From: Macrotrachela quadricornifera
Taxonomy: Eukaryota; Rotifera; Eurotatoria; Philodinida; Philodinidae
NCBI GenBank assembly: GCA_022393335.1
Contig: JAJEKB010020966.1
Coordinates: 1,045,147-1,109,146, forward strand
DNA: 64,000 nt
Reading direction: 5' to 3'
Shown: one piece after another, positions 134 through 57,413 of the stretch
How positions within the stretch are numbered: position 1 is the first letter of the stretch
Layout: each line of letters opens with the position of its first letter
Notes under the pieces: generated by a model
What the model saw: the letters and a program-made list of their open reading frames with translations, nothing else
Told to the model about the DNA's origin: nothing
Databases searched by the model: none
Translations under genes and position numbers: made by a program

Positions 134-932
134 GCACTTACCATGCTCGATCTTCATTGGAATCGAATCAGTGGTCAAAAGATACAATATTTGATTAATA
201 GAATATACAATAATACAGTAAATTCCATTCTCTATACATTCTTCTCATTAATAAATCTACACATTTCCATACAGACACTCATAGAACTCAACCTCAGCGG
301 AAATGAAATTGGAAATCATGGAGTAGAAAATCTTCTTTGTGCTTTACAAAATAACAGAGTAAACTATATTTTCTAATGAGCTCTATCCATATCATTTGTA
401 CTTTCTCTTCTAGACATTTACAACACTCTGGCTTTGGCAAAATAAAATCGGACACCAAGGAGCTCAGCATCTCGCCGATCTTTTACGTAACAACACGGTA
501 AATTTCATTCTCTACCAGTCTCTCTCATTAGCATTTATATTTTCCTCTACAGACACCAAAAGAACTGTACCTTGGAAACAATTCAATTGGAGATCAAGGT
601 GTACAATATCTTGCTGATGCTTTAGAAAATAACAAAGTGAAATCGAGTTTTTTAATTATCACTCTAAATACAATTTTCATCTTATATATAGACAATTACT
701 ACACTTGGATTTGCATATAATCAAATCGGAAATCAAGATGCACAATATCTTATCAATGCTCTCAGAAGCAATGAGGTAGATCACACTTTCTACTCATTAT
801 TATTACGATTATTTTTATCTCTCTATATAGACACTCCAGCATTTATATCTCGGCGGGAATGATATTTCGGCGGAAACATGGCATCAGTTTCAAAAAAAAG
901 ACAATTCAAATATATGTAACAATTTTCTATGA
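134..932 (+). pseudogene. 5'-truncated leucine-rich-repeat (RNI-like) gene, C-terminal part
   Basis: Six LRR-coding modules run to a stop at 930-932: 134-217, 275-358, 414-497, 553-636, 692-775 and 831-932. Each internal exon is exactly 84 nt, one 28-residue ribonuclease-inhibitor-type LRR with a pattern like LxxLxLxxNxIGxxGAxxLAxAL. Exons are separated by 55-bp GT..AG introns, so the module period is 139 bp. The last exon ends with a non-LRR tail. The first module lacks a normal AG acceptor (TCTATGCACTT where sister modules have TATAGACACT), and bases 1-130 contain no LRR or F-box sequence. The 5' half of the gene therefore seems lost at a breakpoint near 110-133. A complete relative starts at 3857. 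LRRs are protein-binding solenoids and the partner is unknown. A start outside the window cannot be excluded, but the broken acceptor argues for a pseudogene. Confidence 0.75.
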
Positions 933-2289
933 ATGAATAAATGACATAGAAAACTTGAGGATATGGTATGGGTTAGATACATATATCCATTTACATTCAC
1001 TGTTTCAATAAAACGAGCTAGATTTTATCATATTCTAGAATACGTAACAATTGTTCTATACTTATAAAACTTAATCTTGTATTCTTATGTATAGTGTTGA
1101 CATTATCAATCAACAAACTATACTATATTTATTCAAATAAAAGAAATAAATTCTTCTTCTTTTCTACTTATGTCTTTTCATGTAAACATTAATGTAAAAA
1201 AAGAATTTTCAATAGAGTCAAATCCCAAAAAGACTTTCATTGTTCTTTTGCTATAATATTGACAATATAAAGACTAAAAACATGATTTCCTCTATAAATT
1301 CTTATAATGACATTCGTATCTCTAACTGAGTTGATCTCTTTGAAGAATTGAGAAGAAGGAACAATGACAAATACCAATTGTTCATTGACATTTCGGAGAA
1401 TTTTATCATCTTTCGATAGGCAAATATAAACTTGATATTCGTTGTCACTTTTGAATACTTTTATACAGTTAATAATCGAACCAACTTTTCGTTGAAGATG
1501 ACGATTTCTCTTAAAATAAAACAAACCATCTATTCATAAAAGACAATAAGTGTCTAAATTTTCATTTCTAATTAATCTCCTGAAGTAGCTAGAGATATTA
1601 TCAAAACATTAGTAAATGCCATTTCTTAATAGAAAAACAAATTCACTTACTCCTTTCTAATGATATTCTATCATTGTACTTACCTTGGAAAATTATCCAG
1701 TGACAAAAGTTATTTATGTAATCATAAGTTTCTTTTTATAAAATTGGAATATTCATGTTCATTATTATTCAAATGATTGTATGACAATTCCATTCGATTT
1801 AATTTCATCATATTAATATTAATAATCTTGATCTAATTGTTAATCAAGTTTTACAAAATTCAAATGAGCCTATTGATTAATAGACATGTATTTTTGGTAA
1901 GGAGATTAATTTTGAAGAATTTATACATGTTACTCGACAGAAAACTCAAATAAAAATAATAAGCGAAAAAGTTTTCTCAATGAATACATTATGTAAGAGA
2001 GATACAATCGATTCTCTAATGTTTAATAAAACCCAAAATGGCCAGATCTTCTGAGAGAAAGCTAAAGTTTCTGAAATTCGAATTTTCCTAGTTTTTTTCT
2101 GATGTATAACCAACTTCGAAACTTTTTGAGATAGTATAACTATGCTAATGAAGTTAAGAATAATTAGAATTTATCACTACCATAGAACAACATGATATCA
2201 TCATTTTTCTCTTCAAATAATTGGTAACTCCTGAATTATTTTATCCATTTCAAGGATCTTATCGTCTTGTAAATTTTAAAAATAAATAA
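933..2289. other. AT-rich intergenic stretch with one doubtful ORF
   Basis: No recognisable gene. A minus-strand ORF at 1237-1524 (95 codons) could be a terminal exon, because a T-rich run ending in AAG lies just upstream of its codon 6. Its residues resemble no family I know and no partner exon was found. Other frames are short. Confidence 0.4.
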
Positions 2290-3350
2290 TGAACTATCCG
2301 GTACGCGAGATAGATATGATTGGCGATGATGGTGAAGAAGAACAGAATGAAACAACATCACCATTATGAATACTGAAGAAAAAAAAGGAATTTTTCATAG
2401 TGATTGATTATTCATTAATGAATATTGATTGTGGTTACAAGAAGTAAATCATAATTCAACAAAAACTCGATGTAAAGCTTGTCCGAAAACATTCTTGGTT
2501 CATTCTGATGAAAAATGAGCTGTTCATAAACATATGGGTAGTACTTCACATTAAAAAATCTATAAAATCATTCGAGAGCAATGGCGCACTATAAATGCAA
2601 TTTATAACTCTAGAAGATGAATTAGATAAAAATTCAGTATGTGAATGTATGCTTGTTTTTCGTGGAGTTAAGCACGGGCATAATTATAGGTTTCAGGAAT
2701 GTATAGTTGATTTAATTCGAGCAGTGTTCCATTCATCATGATTAGCTAAAACAGTGTTATATGGTAAAACTAATGCACGAACAATTCTGTGCAATATATA
2801 TAGTTCTTTCTTTACAAGTAAAATTATTAATGGATCATCAAAAATGACATTTTATTCGTTATACGTTCATACTTAAAACAAAGGAAACTGCAAAACATTT
2901 CCGTTTCTAGTTCGATATTTTTCCGAAACAGATGTCAGTCAAGAAAATGATTTATTTTCATGTGAAATTTTAGTTTTTGTATTATATTTACGCAAGTTTT
3001 AATGTAGTACAAATTGTTCATGACAACCGACTAATTGATATTGAAACAATTCTATGTAAAGTGTATTCTTATTTCCTAAGATGAGAAAGTGAATTGAAAA
3101 GTTGAAAGATTTTCTTGAATTTGTACAAATTGATTTGAATGTACGTCATTTGGTCAAGAACTGTATTAAAAAAATGATTAGTGCTAATCTAAGCAGTAAA
3201 CTACACTAGAAATTATCCGATAAATATTATGGCAATAATGCACGATTAGTGTTAAGTCAGTTAGAAGAACTTGATAAATATATTGATTCATCTAGATCGA
3301 TCGACATTTTCGACTATTATTCTCAAAAAAAGAGGAAAAAGAGAAGGAGT
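2290..3350 (+). mobile_element. Decayed hAT-like transposase
   Basis: Broken plus-strand reading frames keep the order of a hAT-type transposase. Near 2470-2550 there is a zinc-finger-like stretch (CKACPKTF, then an HMGSTSH-type His motif). Near 2640-2860 follow KHGHNYRFQECIVDLIR and an FHSS..LAKTVLYGKTNAR-type segment, which matches the N-terminal region of hAT proteins that lies ahead of the catalytic core. Near 2880-2940 a FPFLVRYFSETD segment resembles the next block. Near 3080-3350 comes a diverged LKDFLEF...LEELDKYID region. Frames change and stops occur throughout, so this is a dead copy. No terminal repeats were found. Assignment is by remembered motif order only. Confidence 0.5.
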
Positions 3351-3856
3351 GGAAACCAGCTATTATTTATTTCGTATATTTACTTAAAGTATCAATTGAC
3401 ACATTTTAGATAATAATAATAATAGAAACTGCCTCCAAAAAAACTAGGAAAATGATAAAAATAAATAAATTGTTTCAATCAGTATTCTTACAAGATGGAT
3501 TTATTTTATTTTTTAATCAAAAAATTAACTTTATTTCTAATAAAAAAAAGAGAATGTAAAAGAATTTTATAAGACCAACTAGTTATTCAATCTCATTGAC
3601 ATACATTACATTACGTGTTGAAAATAAAATAGGGCGAATAAAAAGGTAAATTATAATTTTTTTGCTCATACTTTTATATTTTATTATTAGCATTATTCAT
3701 TTGCATTTCTTTACCCAAACAAGTAATTACACAACTATAAGAAACTAATGTTACAAAATAGATATAAACTCACTAAAACGAAAAGCAAAAATGCAATCAC
3801 TCATTTTATATAACCATAATAAATTTAAGCACAACACATTATAACAATTTATATCA
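3351..3856. other. AT-rich spacer upstream of the F-box/LRR gene
   Basis: Short A and T runs only. No ORF or repeat was recognised. It should contain the promoter of the gene starting at 3857, but I see no convincing core element. Confidence 0.4.
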
Positions 3857-6839
3857 ATGTCTGACAAAAGTGTCTCATGTTTTGTGGCAGTACCTATAGA
3901 AATTATTCATCGAATTCTGGATAATTTGGATGAACTAACTATTCTATTATCAATGCGCAATGTTTCAAAACGTATAAATGCAATTGTGGACATTTATTAT
4001 CCATATCAGGCACGCTTTTTTCTTTATCTTAATCATTGAATTTTTATCATTTTCAAAATATTCTTCACTGTCATTAACATATTATATCTTTGGGATATTT
4101 TCTTTTGCTGATCTCAAACTACGAGATAGAACAGGGTATATCTAAAGTTATGTTACAAATTATTTATATGCAAACTATTTCACATAAATCAAGATGGTTT
4201 ATCATTATCAAATATTTGAATGATATTGTTCTACATGAAACAAAGCAGAAATTGTGATTCCATGCTACAAAATTTAGAATTTTAAAAACTTTACTTTTTA
4301 TGAGACATAATTACAAACGAGTACACAACTATGAGAAACTATTGAAAAAGTCATCATCTCTTATATGAATATAACTATTATATTTTACTTTAGCTAAAAG
4401 TGAAGATAATTTTCGTCAGTTGTCTCAATAATTGTTCCCAATACGATACACTTATCCGTTTTTTTTCCATTTTAATATAATCACCATTTTTTTGACTACT
4501 GATACGATTTGAGTATTCAAAAGTTGAATTATGAAATTTATGTACAAGTTCGTTCATCATTTTAACTTTTTTTTTATTTCACATAGACACTCACAACATT
4601 GAATCTTCGATCGTGGAAAATCGGTACAAAAAAAGTACAACATCTTGCACGTGCTCTCAAAGAAACCAAAGTAATATTCCTTCTTCATTCTCTCATATTG
4701 TAATTCACGCATTATTTCACATAGATACTCACTACATTGGACTTAACGAACAATCAAATCAGTGATCAAGGAGTACACTATCTTGCCAATACTCTACAAG
4801 AAAACAAAGTAGCATCCTCCTCTCGCTTTCTTTTAGTATTATATATTCATTATTTCACATAGACACTCACTATATTGAACCTCACAAACAATCAAATCGG
4901 TGATCACGGAGCACAATATCTGGCTAATGCTTTACAAGAAAACAAAGTAACATTTTTCTGCCATATTTTAATTCTATTACTCACTCATTATTTCTTACAG
5001 ACGCTCACCACACTGAACCTCTACTACAATCAAATCCGTTCATACGGAGCACATCAACTTGCTGATGCTCTAAAAGAAAACAAAGTAACATTCTTCTCTG
5101 ACTTTCTTATTCTATCACTCACTCATATGACACATAGACAGTCACCTCACTGAATATCGGCTGTAATCAAATCGGTGATCATGGAGCACGATGTCTTGCC
5201 AATGCTCTAAAAGAAAACAAAGTAACATTCTGCTGTCATTTTCTTATTCTATTACTCACTCATTATTTCATATAGACACTCACTACACTAAACCTTTATA
5301 ACAATAAAATCGATTCACACGGAGCACAACATCTTGCCAATGCTTTACAAGAAAATAAAGTATTAATATTTCCACATTCTCTTCTCCGAGTAATCACACA
5401 TTATTTCACATAGACACTCTTCACACTGAGTCTCGGATCGAATCGAATCGAATCGGTCCGGAAGCAGTACAATACATTGCTAATGCTCTACAAGAGAACA
5501 AAGTAGGTGCTAGGACAATTCGTTGCAGACAATTCGTTGCAACGACATAATCCAATTATAATTTATCATTATTTTTTCGTTGGTGAAGGGACCTATTAAG
5601 TTAAGTTAAGAACACATAACTCAATAAGTGCAAAAAATGTAGAGGATATTTCTAATGACTAAAACTATACTTTTGCTCTCGAGTAATACAATAATCGTCT
5701 TGTGCACATTAAAAGTCAGAGTATTTGAATTATGTCAGCGATAAAAGTTTTTTGTAGAAGTAGAAATGTCACCGCAATAAAACAACGTTTGATCAAATTC
5801 TTTTATTAAATCATCCGCATTTGGCGTACAATTTTTGACAGTTTAAAGGTTGCTATCTCTTATTCTCTACATTTAAAAATGAACTAGCTCGAATTAATTT
5901 ATGACTTATAAAGTGCTACGACTAATTTTCATAATATCTCACGTCTGAAGTCTTTTCATCTCATCGATACTGCTCATGAAGCGAAAAACGAGTCCGGTTT
6001 TTGTCGAGCCAGAATTTCTTGTAACGACGCAAACCGAAATAAAAAACAGTCAAGTTTAGCCATTAGAAATATCCTCTACATTTTTTGCACTTATTGAGTT
6101 ATGTGTTCTTAACTTAACTTAATATGTCCCTTCACCAACGAAAAAATAATGATAAATTATAATTGGATTATGTCGTTGCAACGAATTGTCCATGCGACGA
6201 ATTGTCCGCAACGCATTGTCCACGACGAATTGTCCTGCAACGAATTGCCCGGTCACCAACAAAATAATATTTTCCCCGCCTTTCCTTATTCTATCACTCA
6301 CTTATTGTTTCACATAGACACTCACCACATTATCCCTCGAAGGGAATGAAATCGGTGATTACGGCGCACAATACCTAGCTAATGCTTTGCAAGAAAATAA
6401 AGTAACATTTTTGTCTCACTTTTCTAACCTATCACTTACTCATTATTTATTACAGACACTCATCATATTAAACCTCGGTAATAATCAAATCGGTTCAAAA
6501 GGAGCACAATATCTTGCCAATACTCTACAAGAAAACAAAGTAACATTCTTCTCTCATTTTCTTATCTGACTACTCAGTCACTCATTATTTCACATAGATA
6601 CTCACTACACTGAACCTTTACCATAATCAAATAGATAATGAAGGGGCACAATATCTGACTACGGCTCTGCAAAAAAACAGAGTAATATTGTTACCTCATT
6701 TTTTATATTACTACTCATCCATTAATTCGCATAGACACTTACAACACTGGATCTTAGACTCAATAGCATTAGTGTTGATGAAAAACGAAATGTCAAGGAT
6801 ACACTAAAAAATAATTCTCAACTAGAGATAATTATATAG
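3857..6839 (+). CDS. F-box / leucine-rich-repeat protein, modular exons, possibly disrupted
   Basis: Exon 1 (3857-4009, 51 codons) encodes an F-box-like segment (VPIEIIHRILDNLDEL, then LLSMRNVSKRIN). It is followed by eleven LRR exons at 4587-4670, 4725-4808, 4863-4946, 5001-5084, 5138-5221, 5276-5359, 5414-5502, 6318-6401, 6456-6539, 6598-6681 and 6735-6839 (stop 6837-6839). All are phase 0 and all but two are 84 nt, one 28-residue RNI-type LRR each. Exon 1 would have to use a GC donor (CAG|GCACGC) and a 577-bp intron. F-box/LRR proteins are usually substrate receptors of SCF ubiquitin ligases, which is inferred here from the family. Two oddities: the 5414-5502 exon is 89 nt because of a TCGAA-type slippage (frameshift unless skipped), and a 0.75-kb transposon sits in the next intron. 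Skipping any 84-nt module keeps frame, so function may survive. Confidence 0.7.
4587..5502 (+). repeat. Tandem exon+intron LRR modules, 138-bp period
   Basis: Exon starts at 4587, 4725, 4863, 5001, 5138, 5276 and 5414 are spaced 138, 138, 138, 137, 138 and 138 bp. The 84-nt exons are similar, and so are the introns: each begins GTAAC or GTAATATTC, carries TCTTATTCTATCACTCACTCATTATTTC-like pyrimidine-rich sequence and ends CATAG or ACAG. Three further modules at 6318, 6456 and 6598 continue the series after the transposon. The repeat unit is therefore the exon with its intron. Confidence 0.9.
5506..6256. mobile_element. Non-autonomous DNA transposon with long TIRs (family A, copy 1)
   Basis: About 150 bp at 5506-5660 is repeated inverted at 6045-6256, including GTGCAAAAAATGTAGAGGAT and its complement. 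The ends are GGTGCTAGGACAATTCG and its approximate complement CGAATTGCCCGGTCACC. Near each end a short motif of the type GCAACGAATTGTCC is repeated, about five times on the right and twice on the left. Flanks read AACAAAGTA and AACAAAATA, a probable 9-bp target duplication with one mismatch. The 390-bp interior has no transposase ORF. The insertion lies in an intron of the F-box/LRR gene and the duplicated target covers that intron's splice donor. Confidence 0.85.
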
Positions 6840-9716
6840 TTCTTACAAAAGCGAACGATTATGCATAACAATGACATTATGTATTGAGCGATGAACTGAT
6901 TAATATTATATATTTAATAAATGTATACTCAATTCATTGATATCAGTTATAATTCTCATGTATTTCCAGCATAGGCAACATATTTTGAAGTATTGTCTTA
7001 TTGTATGAATCTCTTTCAATTAAATAATGTCTTTACCTGTCAAATGTTTTTGATTAATTTGATTTTTCTCGTTTGCCATAATTTGAACATTTAGTTTGAA
7101 GTGATATTTTTGCTTTCAACCTATAATTTTCTAATAATAGCCAAAATATCCATATGGTTCGATTTTTTGCGTTGAATCACTCAATTAACATTGTACCACC
7201 GAATTTTTATTATATGATCATATTCAGTAAATTCATTTATTTCTACTTGTGTTTAAGATTGATGTTCATATCACATTGTGAGTTCCATTATTGTTGTATC
7301 TCTGCATATTACTTTATCTGTTGATGATAAAGTAATTAGTTATTAGGCTATGAAAGTTTTTAGTGAATCAGAATAAAAAAAACGGTAGAGTAGAAATAAG
7401 TGTCACATCTATTTTTCAGATAATAGTTTCATTTCAAATACTAAATGACAGCAGTGTCGTATGTAAATTATAAAAACTAAACATATTAGAAATTTTTTAA
7501 TACTCAGAATAAAAATTAACGTTTGACTGTTCGTGTGAATAGTTGCCCCATTAATTATGATTGATTGAACGCGAATCATATTTATTTATCAAAATTCATA
7601 CCTTTTGATTATGCCATTTGCTTGTGTACTGTCCCGATATTCTTGTTAGAAGACTGAATAATATTCTGAAAAAGAGAAAAATGACTTATGCTAAATGAAT
7701 ATTTCATCTTCTGAGGAATGAAGAAGAGATTCGAAGATATTAAGTATACGGCTATAGTTCAAATTGATGAAGTTTACTTTATCACAGCGAGGGGCTACTG
7801 GGACTTATTTTTTTGGGATTTATTTCTTCAGCAGGATTTATTGGGATTTATTTATTTACTAAAGATTTATTGACATTTATTAGGTGTATTAGTATTTCAC
7901 GGCACCCTAACTCTTGCCCTCTATCCTCCGCACTCGCCCTCTCTCTCACGAAGAGTTATGTGGAATTTATTCTAAGATGTATGGGGATTTTAATAAAAAA
8001 AACCGAATAAATTTCAAAAAAAGGTTCCCAGTAGCTGCTGTTGTTTTCTTATGGTTATTTATTTATATCTGTCAGTTTTTAAACAATCTAAACTAGAACT
8101 TATTTATATATTCAGAATTCAGCAAATTTTTCTTTTATTCAAATAAAATACTTCTGCTTCTTCTTATTACTAAATATACCATTCATTAATAAATCACGTA
8201 TACAACCATATATCGACGACAACATCTACAAATACTTAACAAATTCGTACTTCATATACAACTGTCTCCAATCGATAATTCTAATGTTCGACTTATCATT
8301 TCATATACCAAATTAATTTTATAATACATTTCACTATACTTCTACTTATTCTTATTCTGTAGAGCGGCTAAGACATTTCTGGACTTCGTAACAATAACGA
8401 TTCAATTGCATTATCTTTATTAGAATATTTCAAATGCATACAATGGATTCTTTAGTATTTCTTTGCGATTGCATATAGTCACGTAGGTATACATAGCTGG
8501 GAGTACAATTTTCCCGCTAAGATACGGCATGAAACTATGACATAACCACAAGTTCACAACACCAACGCTTCATTGATAACAGCTAAATGTAAATAAATGG
8601 GCATCCTCCGTCAAAATATTCATTTGGAATCTTTCCTTTCTTTCAAAATATATATCCTTTAATTCGTTTACTACACAATCCTTATTCCATCATTTTAAAT
8701 ACCCAAATCGAACAATATTTAACAACAAACATTTTCTATTCATCCGAAACTATCAATTCTGAATACAAGTCATCGTATGTACAGAATGTTAGTTAGCATT
8801 TATTTTCCAAATTGAACGCAAAAATCATTTATTCATCATATTCTTTAGTAAATAAAACGATACTATTATCATTTTTAATCAACCATATACTTTCAAAATC
8901 AATCAAAAACATCGACAACAAAAAAATTTCGTAGAACAAACCAAATCATTCAACTAAACATAGTAGAATACAGTATTGAATTCCTGCATAGTACTGGAAT
9001 AAGATTTGGTTTTGATTTTATATTGGATTAAATCATTGAAAATCGTCATAGCTGCCGTGAAATCTAGATATTGGCAGCTGTTCTCACACCTCACCCTTTC
9101 AAAAGTTCATTTATAATAAAGAAATTTTTGATCAAATTTATCTTGTTTTATAACACAATATTTCTCAAATCATTTGTCTTTTTAGAATATCTTACTCTCT
9201 GTTAATTTATATTTCCTTCTGATAAAAATATAACAAATATTTTAAACTGTGAGTGTATTTCACTTTAAGTCTCAAACTGTTGTGAGAAATATTTATCAAG
9301 ATATTAATAAAAGTTATTAAGAAATTCATATACAAGAAAAAAGTCATTGCATTGAATCGATAGTGCAATGACTCATCCAGTGAGAGATGCTTCAGAACGT
9401 TTTCTCGTGTTCTAGTCGCTTCGATGACGTGTAGAACAGAAATAAAAAAATGTTATTTTTTGCACTCAGTAGGACGAAAGGAACAGAAAAGAAAGAAGAA
9501 GAATGTGTATAACGTCATTCCATGACATTAAAGAACAAGAAGAAAAGATTTTACACCATATAAATAGACAGAAACGTTTTTGACTTTTTCTGTCATAAAG
9601 TGCAAGTGTAACTGAGAATTACTTTAAACGCCATCATTCTATCATACGGACGATTCTTATTCAAAACGACGATAATAAACAAGGTATCTTCTGTTTTTTC
9701 TTCACTATTAAAAACA
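6840..9716. other. Long intergenic region without recognisable genes
   Basis: AT-rich, with stops in every frame at short intervals. Overlapping ORFs at 7813-8096 have low-complexity, non-conserved translations. A slightly more GC-rich patch at 8460-8600 shows no motif. Around 9420-9560 there are TGACGT/ACGTCA-like half sites and purine-rich sequence that may belong to the promoter of the next gene. Confidence 0.4.
9559..9566 (+). promoter_or_regulatory. TATA-box candidate of the SGNH hydrolase gene
   Basis: TATAAATA lies about 150 bp upstream of the start codon at 9717, in a region lacking other ORFs. This is a plausible core promoter with a 5' leader of roughly 120 nt. Confidence 0.45.
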
Positions 9717-10370
9717 ATGGGTAATCAAATCATTTCGGAAACATTAAATAGTCAAAGAAAAATACCAGAAAAAGTATCTAAATATATATGTATGGGTGCA
9801 TCCGATGCTGTCGGTTTAGGAACATCCAATCCATCGAAAGATGGTTGGGTACCTAAATTTGCTAATTTAATTAATGCCGAAAAAACTATTAATCTCGGTC
9901 GTAGTGGTTCAACACTTTCTCAAGCTATGCATGAACAATTACCGAAAGTACTCGATCATAAACCTGATGTAGTTACTATTTGGTTAGCAGTCAATGATTT
10001 TAATCGACAAGTTTATGATCGATCACTTCTAACGAAATATACATCTGATCTACATGAATTATTATCACAATTACGAACTAAATTAGGTGAACAGACTCGA
10101 ATTCTTGTAGGAAATATTCCTGATCTATCTCAAGTAGCCATTTATACATCACTTGGTATACCAAAACTTCTATTAAATCTTCAAGTGAAACGATGGAATG
10201 ATGCTATTAACCAAGCAGTAAAAAAATATCAATGTGATCTTGTTGATCTTTATTCTCATTGGAAAGAATTAGCTGATCATCCTGAATATGTATCTTTCGA
10301 TGGTTTTCATCCATCAACAAATGGATACGATAGACTTGCACAAGTTTTTCATCAACAATATGTTCGATAG
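9717..10370 (+). CDS. SGNH/GDSL-family hydrolase, intronless
   Basis: 217-codon uninterrupted ORF. Four SGNH blocks are present in order: GASDAVG with the presumed nucleophile Ser29, GRSGST with oxyanion Gly61, AVND with Asn93, and DGFHPS with Asp195 and His198. Family members are serine esterases/lipases acting on acyl or acetyl esters, and the substrate here is unknown. Block I reads GASD rather than the usual GDS. There is no signal peptide, so the enzyme is probably cytosolic. Lack of introns, the compact bacterial-like length and a lone position next to transposons fit a horizontally acquired gene, as is common in bdelloids, but that needs a phylogeny. A TATA box upstream and AATAAA at 10401 suggest a eukaryotic transcription unit. 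The AATGG start context and in-frame block I support this start. Confidence 0.85.
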   Translation: MGNQIISETLNSQRKIPEKVSKYICMGASDAVGLGTSNPSKDGWVPKFANLINAEKTINLGRSGSTLSQAMHEQLPKVLDHKPDVVTIWLAVNDFNRQVYDRSLLTKYTSDLHELLSQLRTKLGEQTRILVGNIPDLSQVAIYTSLGIPKLLLNLQVKRWNDAINQAVKKYQCDLVDLYSHWKELADHPEYVSFDGFHPSTNGYDRLAQVFHQQYVR

Positions 10371-11816: not shown

Positions 11817-12739
11817 AGACTTTTCTTGATTAGCAATGATTCATCAAAGACTTACATATTATAGTTACGTATTTAATTACTATGTAAGAAAAGTTCTAGT
11901 CGATTTTTTTTTGAGTATTTTCATGAAGATATTTATCGTTTTGGAGAAAATCACATATTTTTAAAGTAAAATATTAATAATAATAATACTTTCTTCGAAG
12001 AGAAATCACCATATTTCTTAGATTAGATATTATCTTAAGTCATATCAAAGGTTTCAACTCTGTTTATATGGAAAAATTTTTCTATCCAAGATCTCAATGT
12101 AATTTAATAAAAACGATGACAAAGATTTTCTAATTGAAAAATAAAATGGAAAATAATAATTCTTTATAAGTACAAAACAAATTCGATTAATTCTTTTAAA
12201 TTATTGCGTGAGAAGATGACAAATAGAAGTATCAAGAAATTTGTCAAAAACAATAGAACTAACAAGTATAGTTATTAATAAATAATATTCACATAATTAT
12301 TATTTTTAGAAATAAAAATATATTTCACTAATCTATCAAATTGAATTTGTCATCAGTTTGATAGTTTTATTGCACATAATTCATTAGTTCAAGTAAGGAG
12401 ACTTCTAATCAAACATTCTATGTTCTAATCTCGCTCATCACACCATCTGAATGTATGTATAAAAATCAAATAATTGTCCTATTCGATCCTTTGTAGAAAA
12501 ACATGATTATTATGTGAAGATGATGATGATGCAGGTAGAATCTGTGGAAATAGAATGATTAGTTTTTTCTGAAAAAATTTTCACATGTATATTATAGAAA
12601 TTAATTTCGCAGATATTATGCGTAAAGTATTTTTCAAAAAAAAATATCATTAACACAACATAAACTTGTCTTTATTGTTTGACAATTTAAACAACACAAA
12701 AAAATGAAACATAATAAACTAAAAAGACACAAACAAGAA
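11817..12739. other. AT-rich spacer downstream of the nuclear receptor gene
   Basis: No ORF or repeat was recognised. It should include the 3' UTR of the minus-strand gene ending at 12740. Confidence 0.4.
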
Positions 12740-14026
12740 CTAATTGTTAATAATAAGATTTTGTTCAGTTTTTTCAACAAGAGAATCATATGTTTCTACG
12801 ACCCATTCAGTTTCATAACCATGAATATAAACATCAAAACTAACAAAAAAACATCGAATAAGATCAGAAAATATGATAACAGCTTGTTGAAAAGTATATT
12901 TGTAGAGTAAATATCGCCATGTTAATTCAATATATTTATTTTGAATATCTAAAATTTGTTGATGATTTGATAAATTTATTGGAGAAATGTTTGAATAAGT
13001 TGTAGAATTAAATGTTGAGAAAGACATAATAGCTAAAAAAAGTTTCATTATAGTCATATCCATATCAAGTCGAGTTGTCATACGTTTGACATAAGGTATT
13101 ACACGTGGAGGTATAAAACTTTCAATTGCATCATAAAATGTTGATTGATTCAATAATCCAATTTTGGAAAGAATAAAATTTGATGAAAGATTTCCAATAT
13201 GTACCACTGTATTATGTAATATTATTGAACGATCTTCACTTGTTAATGATCGAAAATCTTGATTTTTTGTATATAATGATTGATCATCATCCAATAAAAC
13301 TTGATATAAATTAATGATTGATGCTGATTTAAAACGATATCTTAGAGGTAATTTATTTTGTTCAAATATATATTGTTCACTTTTAGATAAAACACTATGT
13401 TCATTAAAACAATTTAATATATTTGATATTAAATTCCATTGTTCAATAGTTAATGTTGATTGATCTAATTGTAAAAGATTTAAAGTTGGAAACTAAATAT
13501 ATAAACAAAAAAAAATTAATATGAATTATTTATTATTCTTAAAACTTTAATATCATTATCAACTTGACTGACCGGTTGAGATTCATTAGATCGAACTAAA
13601 ACTTTTGATATTCTTGTTTTTGATGGTGCCGGTGTAGAGTCAGCCACATTTTTTCTTTTTCGATTCTTACCACCTGTTTGTGGTAGAGAACATCGAAATA
13701 ATTCTACTTTCATTCCACTTGCAAAACATTTACGCAATCGACAATAGGAACATATATGACGATTTTTCATATTGATTTGACATTGACCATCAAAATAACA
13801 TTTTAATTTATCCTTTAGAAAGAGAAAAAAATATATCAATAGAATAAAGTTTTCAACAGACTTGTCCTCGTTCTGCATTTCGTTTGAAAAATGTTTTACA
13901 TGCTTTACATGATAGAGCACCAAAATTTACATATTCAGCTGGAGCTTCACAAATTTTACATTCTTGTAAGACTTTTTCTGCTAGTTGCTTTGTATGTGTT
14001 GAATTAGTAGTAGAAAAATTTTCCAT
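12740..14026 (-). CDS. Nuclear receptor (C4 zinc-finger DNA-binding domain plus diverged LBD)
   Basis: Three exons: 14026-13862, 13812-13546 and 13492-12740. The introns are 49 and 53 bp and the product is 394 residues. Residues 23-48 form the first zinc finger (CKIC, then CKACKTFFKRN) and exon 2 the second (CYFDGQ-C, CSYCRLRKCFASGMK). Together these are diagnostic of the nuclear-receptor DNA-binding domain. A basic hinge (GGKNRKRK) follows, then about 270 residues of mostly helical sequence consistent with a ligand-binding domain, although no standard AF-2 helix is obvious. The protein should act as a nuclear, DNA-binding transcription factor. The P-box region (CKACKTFF) differs from the common EGCKGFF, so I do not assign a subfamily. 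The start ATG opens the frame 22 residues before the first zinc-binding cysteine. Confidence 0.85.
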
Positions 14027-16769
14027 TATCAATATGTCTTTTTACTGATCTAAAACTAAACAATGTATAAATTATATTTGAATAATTAAGTTTTAACAAA
14101 TATTATTTAGAATAGATTCCATTGTATCTCGAGTAACAGCTAAGGATTATAACAAATAATGAAATAATTATCTAAAGAAATAGGCAAAGCACGATGAGAA
14201 AAAAGAGGAAAAAATACGCACGTGTTCATTATAAAATGAAGACGGCAAGAAACTTCTTTGCTTTCTGTGTAGAAAGAAATAATAAAAAAAAAGGCCTCAA
14301 TAACCTTTCGTATATATACATAGGGGTAAAAGAATGTACTTCTATAATATGAATTCTTTTCTAACTAGTTGAACATAGTAAGAGACACTTTATTTAATAA
14401 ACTTGATGCTCGATATTCAAAAATAACTCGAATAAATCTTCTATTTCTATTTTTGTTTGTATGAAATTTATCGAATTTTTTTATTTATCAAAATGATCAA
14501 CTCTATACAATGTTAAGAGACTATTAAAAATGAAAAATTGAAAAAATTGTTTATCTCACTGAACTTTGAAAATGATTAACATTTAATTAATTAGAAGTTA
14601 TAAGTAATTCAAGATTTTGTTCTAGATACAATTTACTATTATAGAAATAGATATTATTCTTCTAACTCTCAATCAATTTATTTTGAATAAAAGAAAATAT
14701 TTTTTCATAGATATTATAAGACATATATTTTTAAAAAATCTAAACATATCGATAATTGATTGTTAATTAGAAATACTAGTATTCATCATTCTATTTTATG
14801 TCAATAAGTTCTCGACGAGTTAAGTGTCAAAAAAAATTCATCTACACGAGTTTTTGGATAAGAAGAAGTAAATAAATGATCTCTATAACGATAAATCTAC
14901 TTCTTATTTTAATTAAAACAATTTATTGATTATAGTAACAATAAGTTTTAATTTCTAATCAAAATATTCAATTACAATAATAAACATATTTAAGCTAAAC
15001 AAATCTTTCAAAATTATTCACATTTTTCTCTTTAAACAATAACAATTATTTTTTATTATTTTTACTTTTTTAATTAAAATATTAATGATAAAAGATAGAG
15101 AGATAGAGCGAAACGATTAATTTAAATTATTTTCGATTAAAATGTCACTTTTTATTCATTGTATATTCATTTTAAAGCTTTTTAAGATAATAAATAATTG
15201 AATATAAGATTCGTCTATTTAAGATTATATATAATTAAAATATAATTAAATTCATGTTAAATGTCATTCATAATAAATAAAAATATTCAATTTTTTTTCG
15301 AATCGAAATATTCTGATTACCAATTTAATTATTATTGAAATGATACTAATAGAGAATATTATCACCATATTAATTAATATGTGTGTGCGCAAGTTTTTGT
15401 ATAAAAAATCATAGAGGATTTAAAAAAATAAATATATAAAGATAAAATCAGTTAATGGATTATCATACGAAATATTTCAATTATGAAAATATTAATAAAA
15501 TAATAAAAATAGATGAAAATGCATATTGTGATTAAGAAGATATATGATCTTGAAGCGTATCTTAGTCACTTTTTTTTTAAACTAAAAATTTATATTGATA
15601 CAAAAATCTTTTCTCTTTAATATTTATAGGAGAAGTTTTTTTTTTTCTAGGTTGAAAATGAAAAACTATAGAATTATTCTTATTCAAAGTAAAAAAAAAG
15701 TCGAAATTATTTTTGTCTATATATATTATCTAAAATAATCTATTCGAGTTAATTTTGTTTATCAATTTAGTTAAATTTCGTAATAAATCTCATATAAACT
15801 GTAACGATATAAACATTTCTTTATTTTGAGTCCGTTAGAATTCGATAAAATCAATCAATAATATTTATTTGACTACAAAAAAAACAATCACAAATTCAGG
15901 TTGAACCAGAATAAATAAGAAAAATCTTTTGAATATTATAAGGAGTTTCTCGATCTTATATTATATTCACATCAAAGTCATTTTATTATTTACAAAGAAA
16001 ATCTTAAAATAAATAAATAAATAATTTTTTATGCATAAGAAGAATATAGAATTGTACAAAAAACTATTACATTTAACAGATTTAAGAATTTTATTAATAT
16101 GAATAACAGATTATCATATTGACTAAATGAGAGAGAAATTTGTTTGATTTTTTATGAAACATTCAATAGGATTTTTCTATGTAATGTGCTTGAATGAGTT
16201 TAGAAGAATCAAATTATTTATTTACGGCCCCCCTCCCATCCTAATTTCTATTTTAGCTTCTGATCATTCTATCTTACCGAAATTTCAAGTTGAGTTGTAT
16301 CTCATGCTAGGTATCTCATAGTAAAAATTTCTGCTCAAAATATTGAGTCTACCCAGGTCTATATTGACAGTCCATAAACGACGGTAAACCGATACCAAAC
16401 GGTATCTTTACGGTGTCCAGATATTTTTCACTTACGAGTATCGGTTAATTACATATATAGGGATACATTACAGGCCGTTTAGCATACACCATTCACTACA
16501 CCGTAATGAAACATCGTTTAAGTGGCGTTTTAGCCGTTTTTAATGTATCTTATAAGATTCTTAGTATAAGATTTGAATAAAATTTGATGATCAGAATCTT
16601 GCAAAGTCATACCTAACCATGCGCAACTAAAGTTTTTCTTCGTCAACATAGCTCAATAAAGATAAACAGCCATATTGACATAGACTTAGTCTGCTATCTT
16701 ACTTTTCGTAAAGATAATTTCACATCATTGTCGATTGCAGTAAACAATTTATATGTATAATTTCTATTA
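14027..16769. other. Very AT-rich intergenic region
   Basis: 2.7 kb of short A/T runs with no ORF above background. At 16375-16560 a GC-richer patch contains repeated ACGGTA/TTTACGGTG words. Similar words recur at 17820-17860, which may mark an old repeat bracketing the minisatellite. Confidence 0.4.
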
Positions 16770-44104: not shown

Positions 44105-44767
44105 CTAAACATACAGCATCTCGGCACTAATAAGCATAAAGATCCTAATCCTTTTCAGAGTATTCAGGAACCATTAGAGACTACATGATGCACATAATCG
44201 CGACTCAAAAGCAATTAATCACTTGGGCATTTTTCCTCATTAATGTTATATGTATTTTCATTAAAATATAACATTCAGCCAAACGGTATATTGCTAAGAG
44301 TTATGTTGTTTTCACAGCGATCTAATAAATTCTGTATATTAGAAAAAGCTATTCTACACTTGTTGATGTTTTGTAAGTGATAATGCTTTTGTTTTGTATT
44401 ATTTTATTAATAATGTTAGTATGCGCTGTTAAGAGTATTAAAAAAAAATAATTTAATAACAAATTTTTAAAAAACAACTTATGACATTCTTGTTGCCATC
44501 AATTATTAAGATGCAAGATGAATGAGGATTTTTATAACTTTTTTTTTATTAATTTTTCTTCTTAAACGTTCCTCTTGTCAGTATTAGGAGCACACTATCA
44601 GAAGAGGATAACATCTCATTTTCTTATCTTTGTTTAGAAATAATAATATATTTGGTGTATAATTATTTTTTATAATTAAATAAATTTGAAACATTTTTAC
44701 CCACTATTTCAGATTCATAATTATCGTATTTTTATTAACTTTTTATACGATATAAAATACTTATACG
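44105..44767. other. Upstream region of the ADP-ribosyltransferase gene
   Basis: AT-rich, no ORF. A TTTATACGATATAAAATACTT stretch about 20-40 bp before the start codon may include core promoter sequence. Confidence 0.35.
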
Positions 44768-45541
44768 ATGAATCGCTTTGGTGATATTGATGTTCCATCT
44801 AAACGACTTCCACCTATTTATGGTTATCGCAGTGCAAAACTTGTTTCGATTGAAAAAGCACTTGAACCTATCGAATCTCAAATTGATGAATTACCATATT
44901 ACATAAAGATAGCTAAAAAACATTGCCGCTTTCCATCAGAACATGGACTGTCAAAAGACGAATCAGCTGCTATTTATATTTATACAATGGAATGGGGTGA
45001 TACTACTTTATATCGTGTATTAAATAAAGCATTACGATCAGAAGATAGACAAGCATTAAAAATATGGTTTCCATACTTAAAATTATTTGACACAGCATTA
45101 AATAAACTACCTACTGTTAAGGAAGTTATATGGCGAGGCATTCCTCTGAATATTGGCAAAAATTATACTAAAAATCAGCATGTGATATGGTGGAGTGTTA
45201 ATTCATGTTCATCATCAGTTGATGTTATCAAAAATTTTCTCGGTGATAATGCAGCTTCAACTCTTTTCTTAATTGAAGCTATGAATGGAAAAAAAGTTTC
45301 TGGTTATACAGAATATGAAAATGAAGATGAAATTATTCTACGAATGGGAACGGAATTTCGTGTCAAAAGTAATGCTTTAGAACAGTCTAATGGTTCACAT
45401 GTTGTACATTTGATTGAAATCGATGATGATAATGATAATGAAATATTGCCATCAGTTGTGAATGCAATGTCTGCTACTTTAAAACTATCAAATCAAAATA
45501 CTTCAAGTAAGTTAATTATACTTATTGTCAAAGTAATTTGA
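44768..45541 (+). CDS. Arginine mono-ADP-ribosyltransferase (ART, R-S-E class)
   Basis: The ORF opens at 44768 and codes for an ART domain of about 240 residues. R-S-E signature parts are VIWRGI (Arg123, NAD binding), VIWWSVNSCSS (Ser143 region) and ENEDEIIL (Glu186 and Glu188, the ExE of arginine-specific enzymes), then RMGTEFRV. The enzyme moves ADP-ribose from NAD+ to arginine side chains of proteins. The target is unknown. There is no signal peptide or GPI signal, so it looks intracellular, unlike vertebrate ecto-ARTs. The last 11 codons probably read into an intron: TCAA|GTAAGT at 45507 is a strong donor in phase 1. The best downstream acceptor is at 46155, which would fuse it to the NHL repeats. 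Otherwise it ends at 45541 with 257 residues. Confidence 0.85.
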   Translation: MNRFGDIDVPSKRLPPIYGYRSAKLVSIEKALEPIESQIDELPYYIKIAKKHCRFPSEHGLSKDESAAIYIYTMEWGDTTLYRVLNKALRSEDRQALKIWFPYLKLFDTALNKLPTVKEVIWRGIPLNIGKNYTKNQHVIWWSVNSCSSSVDVIKNFLGDNAASTLFLIEAMNGKKVSGYTEYENEDEIILRMGTEFRVKSNALEQSNGSHVVHLIEIDDDNDNEILPSVVNAMSATLKLSNQNTSSKLIILIVKVI

Positions 45542-46127
45542 ACCCGTGATAACAGTGAATAATAATGACTAAGATCAATTTATAGACAATCAATAGTAGG
45601 ATTTCGATTACATGAATATATTTTTATCGATTTTTTAAATTCTATTCTAAAAAAAAAAGTTACTGTCACTAAACTCTACAAAACGAAGAAATAAAATAGT
45701 ATTAAATAAAATATATGCAACTGAAACTAATTTTGTTTAATATTTAACATAATTCTCAAGCTAGATGAAACATGTTTTAAATTTTCTAAAATTTTCTATA
45801 TTTTTCTATAATTATTTCAATACGTGATACTTGACAATATTCTATATATGCCCTCTAAGGACTTTACAAGACAACTTGCATGAAGAAAAAGTTCCTTCCC
45901 AATTGATTTTCAGTTATAGTGAAATAGATATTTTTTTGTTTTTGTGAGAAATGATCGATTTAGACATTAGTAAAGCATGTTATAACAGTACACTTCCTCA
46001 CACTAACTAAACATTCTCTCTAATATTTTCTCAATAATATCAAACAGGATAAGAAAACAACATCATGAAAATTTCTTTTTTGCATTCATATCCTTTTATA
46101 ATAATTCAAAGAAAATAAAGGTTCATT

Positions 46128-47084
46128 TTGATGATGATGCTTTTCTTTATTTTAGTACCATTCCGTGCGAGTTTAATAGATATTCCTCCAAATGCGAAAT
46201 GGAACCAGAATGGTCAGATAGTAGCAGGACAAAATCCGGCACTTTCTAAACCCTGGGGTTTATGTGTGGATGATGATCAAACCGTTTATGTTGCTGATTG
46301 TGATAATCACCGTATTGTGGCATGGAAATTAGGTGAACCAAATGGACAAATAGTAGCGGGTGGACATGGACAAGGATATAGTTCTCAACAATTGTGTGGC
46401 CCACAAGATGTAGTTATAGATAAACAGGGAGATAACCTCATTATTGCTGATTGGGGAAATCAAAGAATAGTCCGATGGCCTCGTCAAAATGGAAAAAGTG
46501 GGGAAACCATTATCTCGAATGTCGGTTGCGAGGGTTTGACAATGGGTGAAAATGGTTATCTCTATATCGCTGAAAAGAAGAACTCTGAAGTAAGACGATA
46601 TCAATTAGGCGAATCACAAGGAACAGTTGTGGCAGGTGGAAATGGCGAAGGAAATCGCTTCGATCAATTCAATGGTCCTACTTACATATTCGTTGATCAT
46701 GAGCATTCCGTATTTGTGTCTGATTATGATAATCATCGTGTGATGAAATGGATAGAAGGTGCAAAAGAAGGTATCGTTGTCGCTGGTGGACAAGGAGAAG
46801 GAAACAATCTGACACAATTATATTATCCCCATGGAGTAGTAGGTGATCAATTGGGTACTGTTTATGTAGCTGATTCACTGAATCATCGAATTGTACGTTG
46901 GGCTAAAGGAGCAAAACAAGGAGATGTGATCGTTGGTGGAAATGGTGAAGGAACACAAGCAAATCAAATCAATTATCCCATGGGATTGTCTTTTGATCGA
47001 TATGGTAATCTCTATGTTGCTGAGTATGGTAATGATCGAGTGCAACGATTCACAATTGAAATCCCATCAAATGAATGGATTTAA
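46128..47084 (+). CDS. Six-repeat NHL beta-propeller protein (or second exon of the ART gene)
   Basis: Six NHL repeats of 45-50 residues follow one another, each with a VAGGxGxG turn, a GPxxVxVDxxGxVYVADxxNHRIVRW-type core and an acidic or lysine-rich link. Six blades would make a closed propeller, normally a protein, RNA or ligand binding platform. From the ATG at 46128 the protein would be 318 residues with a short hydrophobic start (LFFILV), too brief for a convincing signal peptide. An AG acceptor (TTTTAG|TACC) at 46155 sits inside that start. Reading from 46156 gives phase 2/1 continuity with the ART exon ending at 45506, for a 555-residue joint product. The stop is at 47082-47084. Repeat 3 (EGLTMGENGYLYIAEKKN) is the most diverged. 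Confidence 0.85.
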   Translation: MMMMLFFILVPFRASLIDIPPNAKWNQNGQIVAGQNPALSKPWGLCVDDDQTVYVADCDNHRIVAWKLGEPNGQIVAGGHGQGYSSQQLCGPQDVVIDKQGDNLIIADWGNQRIVRWPRQNGKSGETIISNVGCEGLTMGENGYLYIAEKKNSEVRRYQLGESQGTVVAGGNGEGNRFDQFNGPTYIFVDHEHSVFVSDYDNHRVMKWIEGAKEGIVVAGGQGEGNNLTQLYYPHGVVGDQLGTVYVADSLNHRIVRWAKGAKQGDVIVGGNGEGTQANQINYPMGLSFDRYGNLYVAEYGNDRVQRFTIEIPSNEWI

Positions 47085-49483
47085 CTGATGAATAAGCCAT
47101 ATATATTTCAGCTATTGATTTTTTGTTGATTAATTCACGATTTCATCTGAGAGAAATAAAAGAATGAATATAGATGGATATTTATATGTACGTGTGCGCG
47201 ACGAAAGGAACTCTGAGTTTTGAAGGTGCGAAAACGAATAGTAATAAGACAATGTAAGTATATAAGTAGGTACATAGAGATCTTTACACTGGTTTTTTTC
47301 CAACAAAAAAGTCTGTTTAACTCGAATTCGTGCGAACTACATGCATCAATTTAACACTAAATAAAGTTAAAGAATAAAAAGCATTTATTCTCACATCTTC
47401 CAAAAAAATATACTACTTTTGTTATTAATTGTTAATTAAACAACTATGATATATGAAATAGAAAGAGTCATTTAATTAGTAATCAATCACAATTTAAACT
47501 GGAATGAGAAGTATTTAATTGAAGATGATAAAAAAAAGAATTTTGGAATTCCTATGCTACTTCTAACTGGAGCCCATAAATAAGAGAATGGCTTCTCCTA
47601 TTTAATTGAGTGATATTTGAATGATGAATATTGATTCCTTATATAACATTGACTATTTATTGATCAAGCGACCGGCTTCGTTGTTCATATTTGTCTGTAT
47701 TTTCATTCATATGTCTGTCATGTAAAACAATGAACGAAAAAGTGTTTATATTAGAGGTCTGTGACTCAGCTGAAAAGTTACTTCGTCATCGTCGTATCCC
47801 GTCCTGCCTTCCTAAGAACTCAACATAAAAAGAGATTCTTGGTATATATCTTTTCAACTACATGTAACAATCAGTATTTGCTTGATTTAGAAATATGAAA
47901 TCAAATGCATTTGATACATGTTCATAGTTACAAAAAGCAGAATTTAGAAATATATAATAAGACTATTACTTGGATTTTGCCATCATGATTTCGACTTGTT
48001 CACATAACGCTCCACTTCGTTCATAAATTAAAATAAACGTGTGTGCTATGTTGTAGAGTATAACAGTAATTGCCGTTTTTTTAGTCACGAATCTTTCTGT
48101 TTCACTCTGAATTACTTTGAAAGTAAAGATACACTTTAATATCTAGATTTGTACCCTTACTAATAAATATTTTGTTAACTACCAAGTAAGATCTTTCTTT
48201 TAGCCAAAGAATAACTTTTCTCCTTTTCTCTACATTGAGATATTGTCAAACTACAACTTGATCGATGTTGCTATAACAACGTTATACAATACAAAAACCT
48301 TTCTCAAAATTCAAGAGTTCCACGTAGAAACTTCGTTTTCATACAAAAGATAAAACACTGGGTTGCATTGAATAGCGTTCGAACGGACTTTCTAAGTGTC
48401 AGAACTTTCGAAATAATTGATGAAAAAAGTGTGTCAAAAACACAACACAATTACGTTTGAATAAGCTGGTTAACATTTTGGAAATATTTGTAAGAAGCCT
48501 GATAGATGTTGTTAGAGATTTGACATATATTCTGCAAAATTTGAATCGTAACGAAATGGGACGAATAGTCAAAACTTCGCACCACTCTTGGCGAAATGAG
48601 GTAGTATAAGTTGGTGATTTGCGAATTTTTGATCTAAATCACAGATTGAGTCTCATCGATTCACTACACAATCAGAAACTAGTAGATATCAAACGCCTTT
48701 AATACTAGTCAGGATTAGTCTGAATTTTCATCTACATGTGTCATGACTAGTTCTTTTTGAAAGAGTGTGCCATCCATCCTAGTCCAAAAACCGTCAAGAC
48801 CACAATTCCTTTGAACGAAATCGTGTTACTGATGCATTCAAATTGATTAATAATAAAAAACAAAAGAAATAAAATATAAAAAGAAAAATTTTCCAGTATC
48901 TGCATCATTTATGAAAAGTAATCAATGAATATCAGATGCATTTAGATTATGCACTAATGAGTAGAATAACAATCAAATTATTGAATGTCTTCTATTGAAA
49001 TCTTTATAGATGGTTTATTAAACACGATCTGTTCTAATATAATTAGTCTTATTATATTTTGTATTTTTATATGTTGAAAGTGTATGAGTATATTGATGCT
49101 TAAAGGGAGTAGAAGTACAAAAATAAACAACATTCATCTCCTAACGACAAATATTAATTTATATATTTTATAAAAAAAGAATCTTTAAACTTTTTATGCT
49201 ATATCATAGTTTAGTGTTATTTTACTTAGAATTATCCAAAAGTAGTGGCCTCCCCGCATCTTAATTTCATATAAAAATCTTAAGAAAAATTTCTTTTTCT
49301 ATGAACAGATAGAGCATCATTTACTCTATTTTTCTATGCTATTTGATCATGCTATTTAACTGTTGTAATAGTAATAAAATTTTCATGATACTGTCTTTTT
49401 TGTAAGTCTGAAATAATATTAATCTAGGGAGATTATGGTCATTATTTCAAATAGAAGTCATAATAAATTTTATATAAAATGAA
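47085..49483. other. 2.4-kb gene-poor region
   Basis: No ORF, domain or repeat recognised. Confidence 0.4.
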
Positions 49484-56973: not shown

Positions 56974-57413
56974 TGTTAAAACTTAAAAGATAAATATATA
57001 ATCGAATATCCATATTTAATAGATAATTTTAATTTTTTTGATCTTTTGTTTTAAATTTTTTTTTTTTTTTTTATTTTTTTATTATAAGAAATGTCAAAAA
57101 TATAAAACTTTGTTTTCTTTAAGAAAAGTTTCGTTATGGTAACCCGTTTTTTTTCTTTATTTTTTACTGACCTGACGACGGTTACTTGACAAGAATACGA
57201 AAGATCTCGATGACTACCGTTACTTTAGTCAAAAGCAATAAGAGAAAAAAGAATGACACCAAGCAACGGTCGTCCAAGCATTCTGTTACCTAGGGGTCAC
57301 ATTCATATCATAGACAAACATACATTACTATGGTGCATTATTTTATATTATTTATGCATTTACATTTATTTATTATAGATGTCGCTATTTTATTATAAAA
57401 AAAATAAAATAAT
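56974..57413. other. Spacer between RFX 5' end and the oxidase 3' end
   Basis: 440 bp, T-rich, no gene. The RFX promoter should lie here. Confidence 0.5.

Follow-up and report, generated by a model that had tools for sequence, protein, structure and literature searches.

Do the exons and introns of a repeat gene multiply together as DNA modules, and does a gene built in this way act as a generator of diversity? The question is raised by an LRR gene of the bdelloid rotifer Macrotrachela quadricornifera, located in a 64,000-nucleotide stretch of contig JAJEKB010020966.1 (hereafter the window), whose repeat exons follow each other at a nearly constant distance. The reading favored here, with a probability of roughly 0.7 for the full joint account, is that this gene belongs to a large bdelloid family of F-box plus ribonuclease-inhibitor-type (RI-type) LRR genes, and that its modules change in number by exchange.

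Gene structure and protein family

The gene at 3857-6839 is composed of an F-box first exon followed by 11 LRR exons, mostly of 84 nt and in phase 0 (Table 1). The original prediction had described 84-nt exons repeated every 137-138 bp, and all seven starts from 4587 to 5414 obey this rule, with gaps of 138, 138, 138, 137, 138 and 138 bp; the exon at 5414 departs from it in being 89 nt long and frame-shifted. The gene had been placed at 4587-6839, a location that was right for the LRR exons and missed the F-box exon, the frameshift and the insert described below. Tandem Repeats Finder detects a period of 138 at 4637-5429 with a score of 701, the top of its 27 rows in the window. An 84-nt phase-0 exon with a GT donor is found in 9 of the 11 cases, the exceptions being the exons at 5414 and 6735 (terminal). 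Nine introns are short (53-58 bp), whereas the one after exon 5414 reaches 815 bp because the inverted-repeat insert lies inside it. A neighboring locus with a 139-bp period had also been announced and is indeed there, with one further module at 134. In the window copy the module at 134, the first of the neighbor gene, lacks the AG acceptor, which is present in the homologous haplotype.

Table 1. Features of the LRR gene and of the neighboring array, in window coordinates
Feature	Positions	Strand	Basis
Neighboring LRR array, 6 modules (134, 275, 414, 553, 692, 831), period 139-141 bp	134..932	+	
Exon 1, F-box, 51 codons, phase 0, then GC donor	3857..4009	+	Pfam; copies
Intron 1 (GC-AG), 577 bp	4010..4586	+	alignment of four copies
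LRR exon 1, 84 nt	4587..4670	+	
LRR exon 2, 84 nt	4725..4808	+	
LRR exon 3, 84 nt; copies B one module fewer here	4863..4946	+	
LRR exon 4, 84 nt	5001..5084	+	
LRR exon 5, 84 nt	5138..5221	+	
LRR exon 6, 84 nt	5276..5359	+	
LRR exon 7, 89 nt, out of frame, 5 extra bases in short tandem repeat	5414..5502	+	
761-bp insertion in intron 7, inverted-repeat arms	5506..6266	.	outer limits by eye
LRR exon 8, 84 nt	6318..6401	+	
LRR exon 9, 84 nt	6456..6539	+	
LRR exon 10, 84 nt	6598..6681	+	
LRR exon 11, terminal, with stop codon	6735..6839	+	

At the domain level, exon 1 matches PF00646 (E 1.7e-5, 25 bits against a Pfam cut-off of 20.5) and reaches 20 bits for PF12937 (F-box-like), under its cut-off of 24.3. 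In the same Pfam run, which covered exon 1 and the first six LRRs, LRR_6 was above cut-off in the LRR part and no NACHT or NB-ARC domain was detected. A 51-codon F-box exon lies 5' of 13 of the 16 arrays L013-L028; upstream of L018, L019 and L027 it was not found, nor by a looser search. The donor of this exon is GT in 12 of the 15 copies compared and GC in the window and in the copies L009 and L011. A position profile of the LRR exon and its splice sites recovers the units of the gene and scored nothing over 5 bits in shuffled sequence (20 shuffles, 20 kb). Across the arrays compared, homologous copies included, 539 units were collected with a profile that contains splice sites. Within this set 485 of 492 introns are GT-AG, intron length is 54.4 +/- 4.0 bp, and six units carry an in-frame stop. 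Of two profiles used, the first counted 15 modules in L022 and overlooked the final one, which the second picked up (16); conversely, the 81-nt module 7 of L009 was seen by the first and overlooked by the second.

The homologous haplotype (L009) and two more distant copies, L011 and L012 (copies B), help to interpret exon 7 of the window, whose counterparts measure 81 nt, in frame, in L009 and 84 nt in L011 and L012. When exon 7 is kept in the window copy an early stop follows, and when it is left out the frame is open to the normal stop. The sole frame-shifted module adjoins the hairpin-forming inverted-repeat insert, which is missing from the other haplotype and whose arms, of about 150 bp each (5513-5663 and 6055-6207), are 97% alike. 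Models running from the F-box to the terminal stop are all open in L009, L011 and L012 under predicted splicing. An F-box above cut-off followed by LRRs in one open frame in these three copies would make the gene an F-box/LRR gene, and domain content suggests that the encoded protein could serve as adaptor of an SCF-type ubiquitin ligase, with the LRR arc as its target-binding part.

Adineta and Rotaria possess relatives that combine an F-box with RI-type repeats; the animals named among the matches listed for the window genes (two listings of 120 rows each) are Rotaria, Adineta and Didymodactylos. For an Adineta ricciae relative (P0009), the predicted fold consists of three N-terminal helices followed by a strand-helix LRR arc (12-row alignment, mean pLDDT 82), and the first-ranked PDB matches of the model are NLRP3 and ribonuclease inhibitor. 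In this gene family each 28-residue LRR corresponds to one 84-nt phase-0 exon with one short intron. Nothing in a phage collection matched the window, in keeping with its eukaryotic origin.

Common descent of exons and introns

It had been proposed that the units multiply as DNA repeats and that their 54-bp introns are themselves conserved. In the 3857-6839 gene, mean pairwise identity is 69% for the nine short introns and 67% for the 11 exons; in the ten exons of 84 nt, four-fold sites reach 62%. Once the splice signals had been removed, the intron cores were compared with 100 shuffles and exceeded them (p<=0.05) in 23 of 36 pairs, and not in the other 13. Over L013-L028, 16 arrays that include homologous copies, the means lie between 72 and 88% for introns and between 72 and 87% for exons. 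These values support the multiplication of exon and intron as one module. Between alleles, intron K is 0.047, dS 0.063 and dN 0.030 (six pairs pooled, a set that omits window module 7 and the neighbor modules without a one-to-one partner); the window and L009 against the more distant L011 give an intron K of 0.13-0.16 and a dS of 0.25-0.27. As allelic intron divergence is near the synonymous rate, the introns show no special constraint, and the idea that the constant period is a sign of such constraint was rejected. The predicted conservation applies to the likeness of the nine short introns, which equals that of the exons, but not to any particular constraint between alleles. Taken as a whole, these comparisons argue that the introns are shared by descent, having been duplicated with their modules, and that they diverge at about the synonymous rate or a little more slowly. 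The correlation between exon and intron identity over module pairs, used as a co-duplication test, is weak (mean r 0.11 for the following and 0.16 for the preceding intron, 21 arrays), which tells against the favored reading; the age of the modules and the position of the exchange points within exons are perhaps the cause.

Homologous copies and module number

The genome searched comprises 450 Mb in 5695 contigs. The homologous haplotype, on contig C4361, is collinear with the window and 93-96% alike over 135-10176 apart from indels, and it is again 96% alike, in the same orientation, at 44700-47100. No C4361 match was found for window 55700-58100 among 10 of 10 candidates scored, nor for window 12000-14400 among 40 of 160 candidates scored. 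Identity between the two copies B is 93%; with the window it is mostly 83-88%, over about 3184-7788 only of the 10-kb stretches compared; given this limit they look like a dispersed duplicate, and an origin as whole-genome duplicates is thought unlikely. A 786-bp stretch of the window (7003-7788), in good part also present in copies B, is missing from L009.

Module counts range from 6 to 20 across arrays. The 3857-6839 gene has 11 modules in both haplotypes and 10 in each of the copies B, and the neighboring gene has 6 in the window and 9 in L009. Among 12 homologous groups at 92-97% identity, two differ in module number, namely the neighboring gene and L024/L030 (9/8). The counts are equal in the 3857-6839 gene, copies B, L016/L017 (16/16), L020/L023/L027 (16/16/16), L021/L022 (16/16), L033/L034 (20/20), L037/L038 (18/18, a partial stretch compared by eye), L041/L042 (19/19), L043/L044 (15/15) and L045/L046 (12/12), the groups within L041-L046 having been picked for look-alike match coordinates, a choice that favors equal counts. 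Differences in module number between homologous copies, which the original prediction proposed to look for, are seen in two groups and not in ten, among them the 3857-6839 gene itself. Outside this count are the near-identical L018/L019 (99.97%, 20/20) and L031/L032 (99.75%, 9/9), the distant L026/L028 (12/11), L035/L036 (13/15) and L039/L040 (12/12), and four arrays whose partner was not retrieved (L013, L014, L015 and L025); for L013 no close second copy was found among 40 of 630 candidates scored. L018 and L019 lie on contigs of about 233 kb (C44 and C43) and their 99.97% identity refers to 10-kb stretches, so they are perhaps assembly duplicates. Homologous arrays also occur in opposite orientation on the same contig (C4891:285580 and C4891:1757386; C4568:834523 and C4568:1130787), which could reflect either a palindromic organization or an artifact of assembly.

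Hybrid modules and the mechanism of number change

In three cases the shorter copy carries a hybrid module formed by the 5' part of one module and the 3' part and intron of a later one, the switch point being located inside the exon. At the neighboring locus, the module at 553 (window module 4) is a hybrid of L009 modules 4 and 7, with 48 of 51 informative sites fitting one switch at nt 64-73 (permutation p 5e-5). In module 2 of copies B, which are relatives of the 3857-6839 gene, the 5' part resembles window-type module 2, and the 3' part together with the intron resembles module 3; a single switch at exon nt 50-60 fits 28 of 32 informative sites (permutation p 0.0005). Elsewhere, module 7 of L030 joins modules 7 and 8 of L024 (45 of 46 sites, p 5e-5). 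The best fit places this switch at nt 44-47, although it could lie as far along as nt 69 should one of the sites be a private change. The three p-values are conditional, since the parents were chosen after viewing identity tables. A control set of 54 triples of orthologous modules showed no more than one wrong-parent site in the best-fit 3' block, and no more than seven scattered over any triple. In a tree of whole modules the hybrid B.2 groups with A.2 (support 0.36) and not with A.3, a position that may fit the behavior of a mixed module.

Regarding the direction of these events, the extra L009 neighbor modules 5 and 6 have a best match of at most 76% in the window copy, and the stretch private to L024 matches L030 at no more than 82% (exon 8) and 85% (intron 7). 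As the stretches found only in the longer copy have no allele-like match, both differences are read as deletions of whole-module length. The longer copy L024 carries broken splice sites and a stop, and it may therefore be decaying. For copies B the direction is less certain. Exon 3 of the window pair shares 87-89% identity with B modules 2 and 3, a level also seen between orthologous exons, and the difference could be a loss in B or a gain in the window pair.

The hybrid modules, together with the count differences, indicate that module number changes at the DNA level without frame cost, just as had been anticipated for an exchange between offset modules. The changes fit either unequal exchange or annealing between repeats. 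Neighboring modules (379 pairs) have identities of 0.74, 0.59, 0.66, 0.67, 0.75, 0.77 and 0.72 in successive 12-nt bins and are most alike at exon nt 49-72, beyond most of the highly variable codons; all three switches lie in the 3' half of the exon, but from three events a preferred exchange site is only a suggestion. The proposed course is that modules of exon plus intron would arise by tandem duplication, that offset modules would undergo homology-driven exchange or annealing leading to an altered module number, and that a switch located within the exon, 3' of most of the variable codons encoding the face, would drop whole faces and leave frame and splice sites intact.

Stability of the arrays

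The most serious alternative, which we regard as unlikely, is that of a static and ancient design in which protein structure keeps the exons at 84 nt, introns would have the minimum length usual in bdelloid genomes and the period is just 84 plus about 54, so that the rare number changes reflect ordinary decay. The equal counts of the 3857-6839 gene (11/11 and 10/10) and the closeness of intron K to dS between alleles would be expected from it, and exonic LRR modularity has been described for human NLRs in the account given by PMC6642158. In addition, in all eight position groups with A and B members the orthologous modules from the four copies cluster as one clade (support 0.90-1.00), in a tree built without the terminal modules and window module 7; nothing here points to homogenisation after the four copies separated. 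Against it stand the recognizable homology of introns from different modules, the three hybrid modules, and arrays of younger appearance. In L039 the period pattern recurs every four modules and two pairs of modules four apart within the gene are 98-99% alike; the best match of a module lies within the array itself, and not in the paralogue compared, for 10 of 11 modules in L026 and for 8 of 11 in L039; and mean intron identity in L026 and L028 is 88%. Homogenisation among modules, which the original prediction proposed to look for by alignment, has left no sign in the 3857-6839 gene since its four copies split, and some other arrays (L026, L028 and L039) look young or homogenised. The picture that emerges is probably one of slow birth and death with occasional bursts.

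A second alternative takes up the claim of a ready-made diversity generator, in which turnover and exon skipping would be favored by selection to vary a recognition surface, for instance in immunity. The most variable repeat positions among 243 distinct modules are 6, 8, 9, 11 and 14 (3.0-3.8 bits, with peaks at position 8, 3.8 bits, and position 9, 3.5 bits), which by LRR geometry we take to belong mostly to the strand and loop of the concave side. At predicted surface positions, dN/dS is 1.0-1.4 in the trio L020/L023/L027, a value given without significance test, and the spread of module counts would also suit such a device. However, dN/dS pooled over six pairs is 0.49 at predicted surface positions and 0.45 elsewhere, and positions 25 and 26, off that face, vary (2.5 bits) about as position 4 does (2.4 bits). 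With number differing in only two of 12 groups, module order kept and no pooled excess of change at surface positions, a selected generator appears improbable, and turnover would be slow birth and death instead of a special device. Assembly error as the source of the number differences is very hard to sustain: tandem arrays are difficult to assemble and runs of N lie just 5' of the window (L029 634-2000) and after one haplotype (L010), but the parental modules of the neighbor hybrid are 67% alike and too different to collapse, both copies B carry the same hybrid, and the junctions lie in N-free sequence.

A bolder extension of the favored reading, rather unlikely in our estimation, is a bdelloid germline system of module exchange, in which recombination confined to the 3' halves of exons would re-cut the LRR arcs of F-box proteins, handing out or discarding intact recognition faces as units, and frame-neutral skipping would rescue damaged modules, a rescue that exon 7 of the window would need. 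Bdelloid rotifers are held to be long asexual, and germline module exchange would, if real, offer such a group a route to new recognition repertoires.

Relation to known systems

Arrays of this general kind have been described in other lineages. The LRR genes of Tetrahymena with 90-bp exons form tandem arrays of constant-length exon plus intron with variable unit number, for which unequal crossing over between exons has been proposed and waves of young arrays described (PMC6564038). Both systems change unit number by exchange, here through hybrid modules, and they are alike in their working but different in family: the exons reported in that source are 90 bp in phase 2, and the introns of the young group of T. 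thermophila are of about 257 bp, often beside a LINE-like element, whereas the rotifer exons are 84 nt in phase 0, preceded by an F-box exon, with introns of about 54 bp and in an animal. In brown-algal ROCO genes, 72-bp exons with one LRR each are arranged in tandem, and their shuffling has been proposed to produce immune diversity (PMC11378527). These exons are in phase 2 and encode a 23-residue LRR linked to a ROC-COR GTPase, in contrast to the phase-0, 28-residue, F-box-linked rotifer repeat, and the same source reports alternative splicing and diversifying selection, unlike the pooled surface positions of the rotifer genes. Vertebrate NLR and ribonuclease-inhibitor genes possess RI-type LRRs with fixed exon borders that preserve the frame and can be skipped (PMC6642158). 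RI-type LRR exons are common to them and to the rotifer gene, in line with the fold ranking of P0009; the NLRP3 exons described there are 171 bp with two LRRs, while the rotifer gene has short similar introns and an F-box in place of NACHT. Bdelloid expansions are stated to include LRR-containing families (PMC3846280), a work that deals, in the portion concerned, with movement with Penelope elements and not with exon modules as here.

According to these descriptions, one-LRR-per-exon arrays that vary by exchange (Tetrahymena, brown algae) and frame-neutral LRR exons (human NLRs) are already known. A search by title and abstract, in which subscription papers were mostly beyond reach, found no report of rotifer LRR exon modules. 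What is new is an animal, F-box-linked, 84-nt phase-0 version in which number changes are resolved at the base level between homologous copies of one genome, with the frame intact. The rate of these changes becomes measurable, at two in 12 homologous groups with a dS of about 0.06 pooled over six pairs, and the same arrays could be scored across clones to learn how lineages held to lack ordinary sex renew repeat-based recognition genes.

Other features of the window

Two further regions of the window were noted. At 9612-10370 an SGNH hydrolase ORF has its closest named relatives in bdelloids and further ones that include Chloroflexota, as if it had been acquired from bacteria. At 44756-47084 there are ADP-ribosyltransferase-like and NHL-repeat ORFs, named by eye, and the second half of this region has more than 30 matching places in the genome at 76-82% identity.
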